Source: Carboxylicivirga linearis (GTDB lineage Bacteria > Bacteroidota > Bacteroidia > Bacteroidales > Marinilabiliaceae). From it: a DNA stretch of 64,000 nt. The translations under genes and the position numbers were made by a program. This document shows, one piece after another, positions 21,734-28,215 of the stretch. The stretch lies in assembly GCF_018271995.1 (NCBI RefSeq), contig NZ_JAGUCO010000002.1:186001-250000 (forward strand), given 5' to 3'. Within the stretch, counting starts at the first letter, position 1; every line of letters begins with the position of its first letter. The notes under the pieces were generated by a model. That model searched no databases. It was not told where the DNA came from and saw only the letters and a program-made list of their open reading frames with translations.

Positions 21734-22189
21734 CTAATGTTCGTGTCCTTCTTCTTCAACTTCAATGTCAATAAAAACCTGACTTTCGTTGCCGGCAGTA
21801 TCAAAGCAGTATACACCTAAATGATATTCGCCTGGTTCAGCATTTGCGGGTACTTCAATTCCTGAAATAGCGGCTCGGTCTTCTTTGGCTTCTGTTAAAT
21901 CGCCCGACCAGCTTTGTTCCCATTCAACATGATCATCCTCAGTTGTTGATTTTACAGCAGCAGTATGATCATGGCCATCGCCATTATAATGGATCTCTAC
22001 CATATACGATTTTAAGGCAACATTATCCGTAAATAGGGCTTCAAAGTCAAAGGTGTCGCCTTGATGAAAATGACGTGCATCTTCGGCTGGTTTAATAATT
22101 TCAATGGTTGGTTTTGTTGTATCCACATCATCATCATTACATGATACAAAAAATAGTACTAAAGCTGCTAAAATTAATGTATTCTTCAT
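21734..22189 (-). CDS. His-rich DUF4625 domain lipoprotein
   Basis: A 151-residue predicted lipoprotein with lipobox FVSC (Cys17), an acidic linker (NDDDVDTTKP) and a DUF4625 beta-sandwich. It shares TIEIIKPAED, FDFEALFTDNVALKSYMVEI and a C-terminal PGEYHLGVYCFDTAGNESQVFIDIEVEE with the paralogue at 9.7 kb. Unlike that copy it is rich in histidine (ARHFHQGD, GDGHDHTA, a C-terminal EEEGHEH), suggesting metal binding. It is 54 nt downstream of the TonB receptor and is probably part of the same metal-responsive transcript. A role as a surface metal-binding partner of the receptor is inference. Confidence 0.8.
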   Translation of the reverse strand: MKNTLILAALVLFFVSCNDDDVDTTKPTIEIIKPAEDARHFHQGDTFDFEALFTDNVALKSYMVEIHYNGDGHDHTAAVKSTTEDDHVEWEQSWSGDLTEAKEDRAAISGIEVPANAEPGEYHLGVYCFDTAGNESQVFIDIEVEEEGHEH

Positions 22190-22243: not shown

Positions 22244-24631
22244 CTAAAAAGGCACTTTAAACATTATTTGAATATTTCGCCCTTGTTCTGGTATTTCTAC
22301 CTGGCGATAAAAACTCATATGGTTGTAAAATCTCTTATTTAACAGGTTAAAGCCTTGCAATACCAATTCGGAGTTTTGGCTGGGCCACGATAATTTGGTG
22401 GATAATCCAGCTCCAAAAATGATATATCCATCGGTAGATTCTTCGTTGCGGGCTACTCTGTTTTGAGATGATGCAAACCGGGTATTGACAAACACCTTTG
22501 TATTGCTTAAACCGGATAATCCTTTAAAAATGGAATAATCCAACTCTACAAAGCCATTTAAAGGAGGTGTAAAGGGGAGTGGATAGCGTTGAGAAGATTC
22601 CTCTGAGACCTGACGATTATACACATATTCTAAAGTAAAATCGGCATTCATTCTGGAGTTTAACTTCTTTCTTGCCATAAACTCAATTCCCATTAGAATT
22701 GCTTCTGATTGTGAATACTTGTAAATCTGGCCGGCATGGGGTAGTTGACTCCACTCACCACTGGGCTGCAAAAACAAGTAATTGCTGAAGTAATAGAAAT
22801 AAGGACTTAATCCAATTGCCAATCCTTCAATATTAAATTCAGCATTTGCATCCACATAATAACCTCGTTCCGAATCCAGATCCGGATCGCCCAATTCATG
22901 CCTGAATGAGCCATGATGAACTCCGTTTGAGGCCAACTCAATAGCCGTAGGCATGCGGAACGCCTTTCCAATATTAAATCGGGCAATCCAGTTTTTATTA
23001 GGTTGATAAAACAAACCCAGTAACCAACTTATATCGCCATAATTTTTATTGATTTGTGAACTTCGCTGCGCATAAAAGGTAGCTTCATCAGTACTCATAC
23101 CACTGCTAATAAAATAATCGTAAAGAATGGGATCGAAATAAGCTTCTGTATGAAGGTTGGAAGCATCGTAGCGCAAACCAGCTTCAAAAGTTAACTTATC
23201 CGATAGTTGGTATTCATCTTTTACAAATAAACCCAAAGCATAACTATTGTATTCAGGCAATAAAAAATTATAGCCGGCCGATGTGTTTGTTCTGTACTGA
23301 TTCTGAAATCCAAATTCAACTTTATGATTATTTAGGGCCGTAACACGGTATTTTGCATTCGCAATATATGTGCTTAAACGAAAGTCAAACTCCAGATTTG
23401 GATCTTTCTCGGGTGCCGGTTGATTAGCATAATGGGTATGAAACAAGCTGTGTTCTTGTCGTAAATTATACTGATAAGCCAAATCAACCAGTAAAACACC
23501 TGATGAAAGAAAGAACTTACTATTACTTAATACCTTTGAATGGTTTGCCAGCTGATGCGGATAATCAATGTTTCGATAGCTGCCATCGTGCTGAACCCTA
23601 TCTATATCGGGTACTCCATGGGCACCCGGAAAGAAGCCTGATTTTTGATAAACATTACTCAATGTAAGCGATGTTTTATAGGTCTTTCCTAAATAGCCAT
23701 ATTGAAGATAGGCATCATACTCTTTTCCGGCCGTATTTTTCAGACGTTGATTATAAACCGGAATTCGTCGGTTGAGATAAACAATTTCGTCGGTAGGTAC
23801 CCGGTAATCGCCAAAATCAAGCGCCGAAATACGTCCTTTGAAATAGTTGTTTTCACCACGTCCCTGCAGATAAGCCGAGGCACCTATTGTTCCATTAACA
23901 CTCTTGCCTAATAAACTGGCTGTTCCGCTAAATGAATGCTCCTCGGGTACCAAATCATTATTGATATTAATATAACCGCCAATGGCATCGCTACCGTATT
24001 CAATACCAGAAGCTCCTTTTACAATTTCGGCTGTTTCAATATTAAAAGGATCAATCTCCAAACCATGATCAGCACCCCATTGCTGCCCTTCCTGTTTTAT
24101 ACCATTCTCACTCACCACAACTCGGTTAAATCCCATTCCTCTAATAACAGGTTTAGAAGCATTAGCACCAATATCCATAGAGTTTACACCCGGCAAACGC
24201 TCCAGACTCTTTATAAAAGTACCATTAAGGTTTTGCATCATAAATTCGGTTGAAACCACCTCGTTTTTACGCGATTTACTGGTGTCGATGCGATTCCCTT
24301 TAATAGCAATTTCCTTCAAGTGCCGGGGCGTACATTTCAATCGGGCATGATACGTACTGTTCTTACTGATTGTTATGGTATCGGTAAGGGTATGATGACC
24401 AATGAAAGATACTTCCAGGGTGTAAGTGCCGGCTAATAGATTATCAATTTCAAAATTACCATTGTAATCACTAACGGTTCCTGCTTCAACCGGATGTATA
24501 ACAACTGCAGCACCTGTTAATACTATGTTTTTATCGTCAACAACCGATCCTGTAAGCGTATAACTTTTCTGCCCCAAAGCATTTGCAATGGAAATACTCA
24601 TGCATAGTAATAGCATGATTTTCTTGCTCAT
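22244..24631 (-). CDS. TonB-dependent receptor, ZnuD-like
   Basis: A 795-residue outer-membrane receptor. A signal peptide (MSKKIMLLLCMSISIANALG) is followed by a carboxypeptidase-regulatory-like domain at about 25-100 (LTGSVVDDKNIVLTGAAVVI), a plug at about 120-230 and a 22-strand-type barrel ending in an aromatic/Phe residue. The plug contains LPGVNSMDIGANASKPVIRGMGFNRVVV and a WGADHGLEIDPFNIE segment. The latter is reminiscent of the SPDHA region in the zinc receptor ZnuD, which is my reason for the metal assignment. The neighbours are a His-rich lipoprotein and a Cys/His-rich secreted protein. Zinc, copper or another metal complex is possible; a sugar substrate is unlikely since no SusD is present. 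Confidence 0.82.
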   Translation of the reverse strand: MSKKIMLLLCMSISIANALGQKSYTLTGSVVDDKNIVLTGAAVVIHPVEAGTVSDYNGNFEIDNLLAGTYTLEVSFIGHHTLTDTITISKNSTYHARLKCTPRHLKEIAIKGNRIDTSKSRKNEVVSTEFMMQNLNGTFIKSLERLPGVNSMDIGANASKPVIRGMGFNRVVVSENGIKQEGQQWGADHGLEIDPFNIETAEIVKGASGIEYGSDAIGGYININNDLVPEEHSFSGTASLLGKSVNGTIGASAYLQGRGENNYFKGRISALDFGDYRVPTDEIVYLNRRIPVYNQRLKNTAGKEYDAYLQYGYLGKTYKTSLTLSNVYQKSGFFPGAHGVPDIDRVQHDGSYRNIDYPHQLANHSKVLSNSKFFLSSGVLLVDLAYQYNLRQEHSLFHTHYANQPAPEKDPNLEFDFRLSTYIANAKYRVTALNNHKVEFGFQNQYRTNTSAGYNFLLPEYNSYALGLFVKDEYQLSDKLTFEAGLRYDASNLHTEAYFDPILYDYFISSGMSTDEATFYAQRSSQINKNYGDISWLLGLFYQPNKNWIARFNIGKAFRMPTAIELASNGVHHGSFRHELGDPDLDSERGYYVDANAEFNIEGLAIGLSPYFYYFSNYLFLQPSGEWSQLPHAGQIYKYSQSEAILMGIEFMARKKLNSRMNADFTLEYVYNRQVSEESSQRYPLPFTPPLNGFVELDYSIFKGLSGLSNTKVFVNTRFASSQNRVARNEESTDGYIIFGAGLSTKLSWPSQNSELVLQGFNLLNKRFYNHMSFYRQVEIPEQGRNIQIMFKVPF

Positions 24632-24993
24632 ATTATTAAATAATTGAGATTAAACCACCTGAGAATAATTGGCTTATTATTCTATTAGTTACCTAAGCCA
24701 TACTATTGACTCAAACAACTAAATCAAAATATAGTATGTTTACAGCCCTTCATTAGAATAGTAAGCTATTACCTTCTTTTAAAGACTTAACTATAACCTG
24801 GGTTCGATAAGAAATAACATGCTCAAATCGCCTATAAATACTACGTTTCAGAGAATATTTACGAATACATAGCTAAGCTATGACAAGTAGATATTATGTA
24901 GAAAAATGGTTTTATAAGTGAAAAATCATACGCTTCTTAACCAACAATCTTTTAATAAAGCTTGAGCTGTCTAATTTAAACCGAATTCAGGTA
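24632..24993. other. Gene-free 362-nt stretch between receptor and Cys/His-rich gene
   Basis: No ORF, tRNA or known RNA was recognised. The stretch contains a 15-nt near-palindrome (CATAGCTAAGCTATG, 24868-24882) in the middle of a moderately AT-rich sequence. It is unusually long for the inside of an operon and may hold a second promoter, a 5' leader or the remnant of a small mobile repeat. Confidence 0.4.
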
Positions 24994-25359
24994 TTAAGTT
25001 AAAAGAGTAGGAGGGGCTCTGGGGGATTTAACTGTTTTATCGCGAAGCGAATGTATATTATTTATAGCAATTACAAGTATGCTATAATTACAATCAACAA
25101 TTGAAAGATATGAGTTGTGTTGGGGTAAGTCTTTTACCGGAAATTCATATTCACATATTGGACACAGGCTTTTTAGTTCTGAGAAACTCTCATTGGTAGC
25201 CCCGTTATCATGCTTTTGTACTTGAACATCACAGCTTGAATCAGCACAGATATGAACATCATTAAGATGATGATGCACCACGTGCACTGATTGAAAAGCT
25301 ATAGGATACAGTAATATCCCGAGTAGCAGAATGGTAATATGTGATTTAAGTTCTTTCAA
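24994..25359 (-). CDS. Small secreted Cys/His-rich protein of the metal locus
   Basis: A 121-residue protein with an N-terminal hydrophobic segment (ITILLLGILLYPIAFQSVHVV) that is a signal peptide or membrane anchor. It continues into a cluster of potential ligands: VHHHLNDVHICADSSC, then CPICEYEFP, plus a further Cys near residue 89. The pattern resembles small metal-associated proteins encoded beside TonB receptors. I do not recognise a named family with certainty. It is the first gene after the palindromic operator and promoter at 25404-25437, so it is likely the most tightly controlled gene of the locus. Zinc or copper sensing, buffering or delivery is inferred. Confidence 0.75.
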   Translation of the reverse strand: MKELKSHITILLLGILLYPIAFQSVHVVHHHLNDVHICADSSCDVQVQKHDNGATNESFSELKSLCPICEYEFPVKDLPQHNSYLSIVDCNYSILVIAINNIHSLRDKTVKSPRAPPTLLT

Positions 25360-25403: not shown

Positions 25404-25435
25404 CAAATGTAATTTATTTGCAACACTGTTGCAAA
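25404..25435 (-). promoter_or_regulatory. Bacteroidota promoter of the metal-uptake locus
   Basis: On the minus strand TTTG (25435-25432) is separated by 20 nt from TACATTTG (25411-25404), an exact match to the -33 TTTG/-7 TAnnTTTG consensus with normal spacing. It predicts a leader of about 40 nt before the Cys/His-rich gene. The -33 box lies inside the palindrome described next. Confidence 0.75.
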
Positions 25436-25437
25436 TA
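25415..25437. promoter_or_regulatory. Perfect 23-bp palindrome, candidate Fur/Zur-family operator
   Basis: A 10-nt arm (TATTTGCAAC) is followed by a 3-nt centre (ACT) and the exact inverted arm. It covers the -33 element and most of the spacer of the minus-strand promoter, the ideal place for a repressor. It lies in the region shared with the divergent M23/S41 gene. Size and symmetry suit a dimeric Fur-superfamily regulator, and the genes it controls look metal-related. The regulator identity is inferred. Confidence 0.75.
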
Positions 25438-25616: not shown

Positions 25617-27716
25617 ATGAAATTATTCTTAACCTTTAGTTTCGTATTTCATTTTAGTCTATTATTAGCTCAAGACCCTAACTGGCAATGGCCAATAGTC
25701 GGACAAAAAGCAGGAGAAAATATTCTGTTTCAACCTGAAGATTATATCAGGCAAGAGAAAAACTATGAAAACATATTTATAGGTGCTCCAGAAGGTACAC
25801 CTATAATTGCTCCTGTTGATGGCACTATTATACGTTATTTTTATAGATATTCTAATTCGCTGACTAACAGTATGAGTTTTCATCATGGAGGACCTGATGG
25901 AGATAGTTTGAAGGAGTTTGATAAAAGACTACGTAAAGAATTATCTTCAAAAGGCAACTATCTGGAGCAATACATTTCTCTAACAATTGGGGTTTCCTGC
26001 GGTAAAGGCTTAAATTATTGGATAAGTGGAGTACGCCCTTATAAATGGTTAAAAACAGGCGAACTCGTTCAAAAAGGAGACACCATTGGTATGGTTGGAT
26101 ATGGATATAAAGAGATATATGAACCTCATATTTTATTTTCAGTAAGCTTAAACGGTAAAGCTGATGACCCAATGAAACCCTTTGGTATTCGATCTTCTTT
26201 TAAACCATACAAACCTGAACCATTAAAATCTGAATTATCAGTTGTGGAATTACTCGAGGATTATACTGTTTTTCAGGAATCATTGGAAGAAGGCCATCCG
26301 GGTTTATACGATTACAATTCTAAAGAGAAAATGGATTTAATTTTCGCGCAGATCCGTAAAAAGATTGACCACCCCATGTCATCCGGTGACTTTAAGGAAT
26401 TAATACAACCAGTGGTAGATTCAATACGAGATTCGCATAGTTTTTTATTCAGTAGCGAAAAAGTTAAAAAAGAACCCTTTAAAGGACGTATTGATTTGCC
26501 AATTTATTTTGGAATTTGCGAAAACAGAGCCATTGTTTACAGAGCGGCATTGGAATATAAAGATTTATTGGGTAAAGAAATTGTAATGATTAATAATGAT
26601 TCTATTTCTGAAATTCTACAAAAAGTCCCCACACCAGCAGGTTCATTCAAAATAGAAGGATATGGTCAAAGTAAATTTGATTGGATGAAATTGGTTTATT
26701 ACAGTATCAAGTATTATAATGATTATGCAAATTATCAGGAAGGTGATTCCATTACCATAAGTTTTTCGGATAGTACCAACATAAAATTAGATTGTGCATT
26801 TCGATCAAAGGAATACATCAAAACAATGGAAAATATTCTTCCCTGGACTGATAAATCTAAAATGAGGAACCTGTCGGTTTCAGAAGTGGATTCAAATACG
26901 GTGTATTTTAGAGTTAATTCGTTTGTTTTAGATCAGGTTGGTCATGATAGTCTTCGTATTAAAATGAATGAAATATGTAAAGCAAATTATAAAAACTTAA
27001 TTATTGATGTGCGTGATAATTGGGGGGGTAATAATTCTTATAATCTATTGTATTCGATGTTGGCTAACAATCCCTACAAAATTCAGTATGGTTCAATGGT
27101 CAAAAGCAATTCTGAGTTTAACTTTCTAAAACATGTACAATCTTATATGGGTATTGATACCATTCATCTATTTCCTGATTACAAAAGAATTGAAGGCAAA
27201 GAAGGTTATTACCATTTGAATAATCGGGTATCAATGCCTCACGATAGTATTCATTTTACGGGGGATGTATATGTATTAGCCAACGAAAATTCGTATTCGG
27301 CAGCCACGTTATTCCCGGCATTGGTTCATAAATATAAAAGAGGAACCATTATAGGGCGCGAAACCGGTTCATGCTATTATCAGATGAATGCGTATAAAAG
27401 TGCTACAATACGACTAAAGAATACTAGATTGGATTTGAAAATACCATTGGTAAAGATCATTTTTGATGATGAAATAAATTCAACTATTCCTTGGGGAAGT
27501 GGTGTATTGCCCGATTATCAGATTAACTGGACCTATGATGAAGCATATAATCAGTCCGATCCTATTATGGATTTTACTTTGAAACTGATCATGCAAAAAG
27601 AAGATATGAATGTTAATCATGATAATTGGAAATCGAATATAATTACAATCGCTATTATTGGTTTCATACTGATAGGTGGATTTCTATTCTATATCAAAAC
27701 TAAACTTTTTAGTTAG
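25617..27716 (+). CDS. Fusion of a degenerate M23 (LytM-like) domain with an S41 peptidase domain
   Basis: A 699-residue exported protein with a signal peptide (MKLFLTFSFVFHFSLLLAQ). Residues about 25-200 are M23-like (GAPEGTPIIAPVDGTIIRY, KKGDTIGMVGYG-like turn, EPHILFSVSLNGKADDP). The first zinc-ligand motif HxxxD is replaced by ENIFIG, and HxH is changed to HIL, so metal binding is probably lost. Residues about 215-660 are S41/C-terminal-processing-like, with GHPGLYDYNS, LIIDVRDNWGGNNSYN and the putative nucleophile in ENSYSAATLFP. A C-terminal transmembrane helix (IITIAIIGFILIGGFLFYI) follows. An envelope protease or signalling role is plausible. Confidence 0.8.
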   Translation: MKLFLTFSFVFHFSLLLAQDPNWQWPIVGQKAGENILFQPEDYIRQEKNYENIFIGAPEGTPIIAPVDGTIIRYFYRYSNSLTNSMSFHHGGPDGDSLKEFDKRLRKELSSKGNYLEQYISLTIGVSCGKGLNYWISGVRPYKWLKTGELVQKGDTIGMVGYGYKEIYEPHILFSVSLNGKADDPMKPFGIRSSFKPYKPEPLKSELSVVELLEDYTVFQESLEEGHPGLYDYNSKEKMDLIFAQIRKKIDHPMSSGDFKELIQPVVDSIRDSHSFLFSSEKVKKEPFKGRIDLPIYFGICENRAIVYRAALEYKDLLGKEIVMINNDSISEILQKVPTPAGSFKIEGYGQSKFDWMKLVYYSIKYYNDYANYQEGDSITISFSDSTNIKLDCAFRSKEYIKTMENILPWTDKSKMRNLSVSEVDSNTVYFRVNSFVLDQVGHDSLRIKMNEICKANYKNLIIDVRDNWGGNNSYNLLYSMLANNPYKIQYGSMVKSNSEFNFLKHVQSYMGIDTIHLFPDYKRIEGKEGYYHLNNRVSMPHDSIHFTGDVYVLANENSYSAATLFPALVHKYKRGTIIGRETGSCYYQMNAYKSATIRLKNTRLDLKIPLVKIIFDDEINSTIPWGSGVLPDYQINWTYDEAYNQSDPIMDFTLKLIMQKEDMNVNHDNWKSNIITIAIIGFILIGGFLFYIKTKLFS

Positions 27717-27742
27717 TTACAGTTTTTTTTATTGTGTAATAT

Positions 27743-28090
27743 GTTCAAATGACCCAAAATCACAAATTTTTCATTCGGGGCATAAACTTTTCATTTAGGG
27801 TCATCGAAAAATGGCTCAACATCATAAACTTTTCATTTCCGGTCACCAATAAATAGTTCAAAGTCATATGCTTTTTATTTCCAGAAGTAAAAAATGGTTT
27901 AAGGTCACCAACTTTTCATTCCGGATCTCAGAAAATGATTTAAAGTCACAAAATTTTGATTCAGGGTCATAAACTTTTCATTCCGGGTCACAAAAAAATG
28001 ACTCAAGGTCACCAACTTTTCATTCTGGGTCACAAATAAATGGCTCAAGGTCATGAATTTTTCATTTCCGGTCACCAACTTATCATTTAA
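27743..28090. repeat. Degenerate 21-nt tandem array (3 x 7 nt units)
   Basis: About sixteen contiguous units of 21 nt (one of 20). One type reads GGTCAYA, then AACTTTT, then CATTCCG. It alternates with a second type reading GGTCACA, then AAAAAAT, then GRCTCAA, giving a 42-nt higher-order period. There are no spacers. No ORF of useful length crosses it on either strand, although 21 nt equals seven codons. It occupies most of the 530-nt gap between the M23/S41 gene and the small barrel gene. Confidence 0.8.
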
Positions 28091-28215
28091 CGGCGCCTCC
28101 GAGCCAAAAAATTATGGAAATAAATGAAAAGCATAAGCTTCAAACAAAATATGATCAATCGGAACCAGAATATTAATTGATAACATAAACAATAATGTAA
28201 ATACAGAGAAATAGT

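Follow-up and report, generated by a model that had tools for sequence, protein, structure and literature searches.

Three genes lie in series on the minus strand of the window, the 64,000-nucleotide stretch of Carboxylicivirga linearis DNA analyzed here. The first is a 121-codon ORF with a TTG start (positions 24,994–25,359), proposed below to be a CruR/CutF-like arrest leader; a 362-nt intergenic region (24,632–24,993) separates it from a gene for a ZnuD-like TonB-dependent receptor of 795 residues (22,244–24,631), identified by sequence and by a search of solved relatives, and this is followed by a gene for a His-rich lipoprotein of 151 residues (21,734–22,189) that matches DUF4625 (PF15418, 2.7e-30). 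The Bacteroidota promoter consensus consists of a TTTG −33 box and a −7 box, and an exact TTTG-N20-TACATTTG promoter is directed leftward into these genes, with its −33 box at 25,432–25,435 and its −7 box, TACATTTG, 20 bases away at 25,404–25,411 (both on the minus strand). The minus-strand reading of the whole element (25,404–25,437) is TATTTGCAACAGTGTTGCAAATAAATTACATTTG. The −33 box lies within a perfect 10-3-10 palindrome of 23 bp, TATTTGCAACACTGTTGCAAATA (25,415–25,437, no strand), proposed here as a Zur operator from its sequence and its recurrence. An earlier note on this DNA had described such a palindrome overlapping a TTTG-N20 promoter, followed by a Cys/His-rich ORF, a TonB receptor with the segment WGADHGLEID, and a DUF4625 lipoprotein; the overlap is exact by sequence, and all three genes are present as described. 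On the other side of the palindrome, at a distance of 180 bp, a divergent gene (25,617–27,716) combines M23-like and S41 peptidase domains, and the intergenic DNA at 27,740–28,100 contains degenerate repeats of the ggtcaccaacttttcattccgggtcac type.

As a bare inverted repeat, the palindrome is just mildly unusual. Perfect 10-3-10 repeats occurred once in the window versus a mean of 0.1 per shuffle (5 of 60 shuffles had one), perfect 10-bp inverted repeats with gaps of 0–8 numbered 15 versus 1.3 in shuffles when nested ones were counted, and the 23-mer pattern at ≤3 mismatches was found once versus 0.02 expected from shuffles. What distinguishes the palindrome is its recurrence at other loci, and the case for an operator rests on that recurrence. 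Across 6.05 Mb of genome, TTGCAACNNNGTTGCAA, the exact core, is present twice: in the window and before a fur-znuA-znuC-znuB-like operon, where a one-mismatch copy lies 39 bp from the exact core. These paired sites precede a Fur-family gene (132 residues), at −20 and −59 relative to its start codon. Its neighbors encode a protein with a ZnuA domain, an ATPase of the ABC type, and an ABC-3 permease. NCBIfam zinc-transporter models (AztA, AztB, and AdcA/ZnuA) were matched by the ATPase, the permease, and the binding protein, below their cut-offs. One further one-mismatch site in this genome (C159), inside a cysN-like gene, was taken as chance.

Among 71 genomes of the family, the exact 19-mer was found in 17, versus none for a reversed control pattern. 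At 12 of the 16 family loci inspected besides the window, the site lies ahead of a Fur-family gene or across its start codon, and znuA follows that gene. Pfam confirmed the FUR domain at 11 of these 12 loci (L015 left out of the scan) and the ZnuA domain at 11 of 12 (L027, cut by the locus end, left out). The remaining four sites comprise two at ArsP-type permeases with HMA domains, one at a TonB gene, and one inside a coding frame; a Pfam scan of the L029 gene detected no Fur domain. Exact palindromes upstream of ArsP-type permeases were seen in L029, L031, and L251, with an HMA domain in two of the three and a divergent Fur gene in L251. Within the genus, genomes were assigned the same module when a relative of the TonB receptor matched over its length at E ≤1e-60, which yielded six besides the window genome at 39–44% identity. 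All six carry the palindrome at ≤2 mismatches, 534–976 bp upstream of the TonB relative, and share the gene order palindrome, leader ORF, TonB gene, with DUF4625-like His-rich ORFs downstream. The distance of the palindrome varies among all seven module loci, window included, and none of 2997 shuffled-arm control palindromes matched more than one of the seven module regions. At two mismatches, the palindrome also lies directly upstream of CobW/COG0523 genes in four genomes (G009, G014, G016, and G017), COG0523 genes being described as Zur targets in the available text of a review (PMC6103462), and upstream of ZnuA genes with no adjoining fur gene in two (G012 and G013). Inspection by eye alone placed the site, at the loci examined, over one of the two boxes (−33 or −7) of a TTTG/TANNTTTG-type promoter.

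The earlier note had assigned the palindrome to a repressor of the Fur/Zur superfamily; its recurrence at zur-znu-like operons and at the orthologous module of the genus, judged from sequence, supports that assignment. The conservation anticipated there was borne out before zur-znu-like operons, in this genome and in relatives, and at the six other genus modules, but not at distant orthologues. An inverted repeat that arose by chance and does not act in regulation would be compatible with that near-complete absence at distant orthologues and with the one in 12 or so window shuffles that contain a perfect 10-3-10 repeat, but it would leave unexplained the same site at zur-znu-like genes and at seven of seven genus module loci at varying distances, and is therefore considered highly improbable. 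Some matches were set aside as chance, namely those inside a peptidase-like ORF (L028), inside an outer-membrane-protein-like ORF (L208), and in GC-rich DNA (L252). Zur-like palindromes were also observed at both ends of two efflux-type islands (L190 and L192; RND-like and His-rich proteins and a Fur gene, by eye), where a zinc repressor shutting off efflux would act in the wrong direction.

The genome that contains the window has three Fur-family genes. The candidate Zur (C93) has a Fur domain, two CxxC pairs (by eye), and znu linkage, and reached the cut-off of no NCBIfam model. Fur-family proteins of 14 genus genomes, 43 in all, formed a tree that split, with 100/99 support, into a side containing Fur and PerR-like proteins (20 rows) and a Zur side (23 rows), in agreement with clades drawn by eye. 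Palindromes at ≤2 mismatches adjoin 10 of the 43 genes, all 10 on the Zur side: they are upstream of five of five genes in the znu-linked clade and of a module-borne gene in G009, and downstream of four of nine C131-type genes. At the same threshold, no palindrome adjoins any of 14 Fur, 6 PerR-like, or 8 xerD-linked genes. The iron Fur and the PerR-like paralogue were rejected as the regulator, since none of their 20 genes has a palindrome. An alternative in which the site is recognized by a different member of the Fur family (the iron Fur, the PerR-like protein, or the C131 type, which is mobile), or by a regulator outside that family, would draw on the presence of three such genes in the genome and on the palindromes just behind C131-type genes, but it runs against the contrast between the Fur and PerR-like genes and the znu-linked Zur clade. 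It also runs against the G009 gene, the single regulator that a genus member was found to carry within the module, which groups with the znu-linked clade (96/87 support, on a long branch). We regard this alternative as very unlikely and, from sequence, the palindrome as very probably a Zur operator.

The znu-linked and xerD-linked types are mutually exclusive by genome (5 versus 8; G010 has neither). In eight genus genomes, the sole non-Fur, non-PerR paralogue common to all is on the Zur side and lacks a palindrome of its own; because palindromes remain at zinc genes there, we suppose that the xerD-linked type reads the same palindrome in those genomes. Other arrangements of Fur-family genes were observed. 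In L144 (∼753–920), an internally deleted fur-like gene, with its start and zinc-binding C-terminal part kept and its DNA-binding part lost, lies between the palindrome and the leader, where G009 (L142) has a whole gene; this remnant suggests that the module formerly had its own regulator. L137 (G000:C131, 369–3829), a short contig of mobile appearance, contains a Zur-side Fur gene, TonB-like and CDF-efflux-like genes, and an integrase-like ORF (by eye), with a three-mismatch palindrome between fur and TonB. In L181, L184, L195, and L196, an xerD-linked Fur-family gene directly follows a long gene, which is TonB-like in L195 and L196; these two are possible TonB-zur pairs.

The metal carried by the receptor was considered from its relatives and aligned ligands. 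Among the 14 solved relatives listed at E 0.001, ZnuD ranked first (1.5e-10), followed by heme receptors (2e-6), and none is a copper receptor. NCBIfam gave a different order, with heme-receptor models (1e-41) ahead of ZnuD (1.7e-29) and TonB-copper (6.9e-13), all below cut-off and ZnuD far below (103 versus 950 bits); heme thus stays compatible with the family models. The neisserial zinc ligands of ZnuD are D99, H100, E340, and H499 (PMC4557270). Asp-99 and His-100 align with D188 and H189 (codons at 24,065–24,070) in WGADHGLEID, which starts at receptor residue 185, and His-499 aligns with H572 (codon at 22,916–22,918), so that three of four ligands are covered and Glu-340 falls outside the alignment (ZnuD chain numbering offset of 14, counted by hand). 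Of 86 relatives, 80 have His at the position of H572; the invariance of D188-H189 is a selection effect, since that motif was used to pick the sequences, and it is present at all 80 named loci. In G019, a relative of the window receptor (E 1.3e-61) directly follows znuB, as does a TonB-like gene in G018. Zinc is the likelier metal because ZnuD is the nearest solved structure and three of its four zinc ligands align, and on this sequence evidence there is a good likelihood that the cargo is zinc. Of the zinc or copper import module suggested in the earlier note, zinc is thus favored by ZnuD similarity and by the operator common to znuA and COG0523 genes, and copper has become less likely.

For copper import, the leader would be a copper-sensing CruR and the palindrome the site of a copper- or multi-metal-responsive Fur-family regulator. 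Such an operon would have precedents in CruR, which governs a copper TonB transporter, and CutF, which governs a multicopper oxidase, according to the available text of the respective papers (PMC9426467 and PMC9973294), and palindromes are also found next to ArsP-type permeases that have an HMA domain, as well as in an efflux-type island. Against this stand the sharing of the operator with znuA and CobW/COG0523 genes, the stronger NCBIfam match to ZnuD than to TonB-copper (neither reaches its cut-off, and heme-receptor models outrank the two), and the list of 14 solved relatives, none of them a copper receptor, which make copper import quite unlikely. In the DUF4625 lipoprotein, the lipobox cysteine, H67, H73, H75, and H123 are invariant across 53 relatives, and the predicted structure (pLDDT 84) is an Ig/PKD-like β sandwich in which residues 73–81 are disordered. 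We infer a role for it in metal capture.

The Cys/His-rich ORF shows features of CruR/CutF-type arrest leaders, which the earlier note missed. It encodes a predicted N-terminal helix, a His-rich stretch, a CxxC motif (CPIC, residues 66–69; codons at 25,153–25,164) proposed from alignment to sense metal, and RAPP (residues 114–117; codons at 25,009–25,020), a proposed ribosome-arrest motif (available text of PMC10951233 and PMC10987492) four residues before the C terminus. A survey covered 87 TonB loci (80 named and 7 of the genus, window included), and in 72 a leader lies directly upstream of the TonB gene, ending in RAPP (43) or RGPP (29) 1–17 residues from the C terminus. The spacing from CxxC to R[AG]PP is 43–46 residues in 72 of 72 (43, n = 24; 44, n = 27, the window leader among them; 45, n = 2; 46, n = 19; in leaders with two CxxC motifs, the spacing nearest 45 was taken). 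R[AGSC]PP tails are otherwise rare in small ORFs at these loci (13 of 1914); two of the 13 belong to leaders that overlap the TonB gene, and the other 11 to ORFs immediately downstream of it. These last correspond to a second short ORF, ending in RGPP and without CxxC, between the TonB and DUF4625 genes of 11 named loci (e.g., L036, L039, L041, and L045), which is possibly a second arrest leader. In an alignment of 50 leaders, H26, both CxxC cysteines, and the R, P, and P of RxPP are invariant at a mean column identity of 22%; RxPP was a selection criterion, and H26 and CxxC were not. The window leader is predicted to form an N-terminal helix (residues 2–37) and little else, the rest being unstructured (pTM 0.33). 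Its match to Pfam DUF2946 was below cut-off (14.0 versus 23.7 bits, E 0.088), and 19 of the 50 family members matched at E ≤0.1 (best 1.7e-6).

Simple cargo was rejected as a reading of the leader on account of the fixed CxxC–RxPP spacing, and by its sequence the Cys/His-rich protein is probably not cargo. A related alternative keeps the Zur operator and zinc receptor and takes this protein as an ordinary periplasmic or membrane-anchored zinc chaperone. Its His-rich stretch and CxxC could bind metal, a length of 121 codons with a predicted N-terminal helix would suit such a role, and no Bacteroidota leader shown to stall was found in the literature searched. Several features speak against a chaperone: few residues (H26, CxxC, and RxPP) are invariant, the remainder is predicted to be unstructured, and, as in CruR, the CxxC–RxPP distance is fixed with RxPP near the C terminus in every one of the 72 leaders. 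The chaperone reading is accordingly judged unlikely, and the sequence makes a CruR/CutF-type leader likely. A CutF-like mechanism might need structured intergenic RNA; the leader-TonB gaps were not enriched for structure over control gaps (mean z −1.78, n = 70, versus −1.55, n = 109), a scoring that left out the window's own region as too long. With regard to the sign of the metal effect, import logic, by analogy, favors that of CruR. The leaders of this type known so far respond to copper, so the leader may sense one metal and the operator another.

The module extends beyond the reach of the palindrome. Within 1.5 kb upstream of the 80 named TonB relatives (8 of which had <1 kb of upstream DNA), the palindrome was found once at ≤2 mismatches and once at 3, and it is absent at the closest named orthologue, that of Labilibacter sediminis (70% identity). 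This scarcity indicates that the leader-TonB-DUF4625 module is the more widespread unit and that the Zur box was added to it locally. Related arrangements do occur elsewhere: in L249, from another family of the order, the palindrome is followed by a Fur-family gene, then a RAPP ORF, then a TonB gene, L241 has a two-mismatch core palindrome immediately before the leader, and L099 has the variant TAATGCAACACGGTTGCATTA before a Fur-family gene. A leader profile matched in 35 of 148 phylum genomes, and DUF2946 exceeded its cut-off in 2 of the 148, at places also found by the profile. In 30 profile loci inspected, the next genes include those for TonB-like proteins and lipoproteins, and for COG0523-type GTPases (by eye) in L236 and L240.

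Taken as a whole, a Zur operator, a zinc receptor, and a metal-sensing arrest leader acting as two layers of control is the reading we favor from sequence, with reasonable though not strong confidence. When zinc is sufficient, a Zur dimer on the −33 box would turn off the leader-TonB-DUF4625 operon, and the zur-znu-like operon with the same sites would be repressed together with it. When zinc is short, Zur would leave and the operon would be transcribed. The first product would be the leader peptide, whose RAPP end would stall the ribosome and whose CxxC/His part would sense metal during export of the chain, the stall deciding whether the ZnuD-like receptor is made. The receptor would then import zinc through the outer membrane, capture or onward transfer may be aided by the His-rich DUF4625 lipoprotein, and ZnuABC would carry the zinc inward. 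A more specific proposal, that the leader is a ribosome-arrest peptide that senses zinc while being exported and so gates outer-membrane zinc import in many Bacteroidota, stacked here on a Zur that reads cytoplasmic zinc, is tentative and has somewhat less than an even chance of being right. The locus offers a concrete candidate for the operator through which a Bacteroidota lineage controls its response to zinc and recasts a cargo-looking gene as a probable regulatory leader. The CruR authors point out that neither copper nor zinc has a known riboswitch (available text of PMC9426467), a gap that a zinc-sensing arrest peptide, if real, would fill. A single operon would then gauge the metal on either side of the inner membrane, and Zur together with an arrest leader would show how metal sensing at the levels of transcription and translation is layered.

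Zur, ZnuD, and CruR/CutF are already known separately, as are CutF-like leaders in Bacteroidota (available text of PMC9973294); the pairing of a CruR/CutF-like leader with a Zur box was not found in the literature searched. The locus resembles Zur regulons, as treated in the available text of PMC6103462, in the Fur-family gene within a znu operon, in palindromic operators that overlap promoters, and in targets that include TonB receptors, ZnuABC, and COG0523 proteins, but the proposed window operator TTTGCAACNNNGTTGCAAA differs from the Escherichia coli motif quoted there. The text of that review does not mention Bacteroidetes, Bacteroides, or Flavobacteria, and no characterized Zur box for Bacteroidota was found in the Zur literature searched. 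ZnuD, the neisserial zinc receptor (PMC4557270; PDB 4rdr), is the best solved relative of the window receptor and shares three of four zinc ligands by alignment, but overall similarity is low, Glu-340 is uncovered, and the match is far under the NCBIfam ZnuD cut-off. With ApdA, ApdP, and RAPP-like leaders, the window leader shares a C-terminal RAPP/RGPP in a short upstream ORF, exported in those leaders and probably so here; those leaders monitor protein export, and no metal-binding motif is described for them in the available text (PMC10951233 and PMC10987492). CutF and CutF-like leaders, in the portions of PMC9973294 available, resemble the proposed leader as nascent exported metal sensors before metal genes and have TonB-like neighbors; Bacteroidota are among the main phyla of that survey, and nickel or cobalt binding is suggested for some. 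CutF differs in that the characterized member is copper-responsive and activates, copper prolonging the stall, and the word zinc is absent from the available main text. The pattern also recalls CruR of Bordetella, a copper-responsive DUF2946 protein that, by the available text of PMC9426467, is the first gene product of a TonB operon, exported and poorly structured, with a CxxC and a C-terminal RAPP 45 residues apart, a spacing conserved within one or two residues, and with a long gap before the TonB gene. CruR, in that text, responds to copper, which relieves the stall, with Rho ending transcription, occurs mostly in Proteobacteria, and has no Zur box described, whereas the window leader has a His-rich stretch and its module a putative zinc-type regulator.
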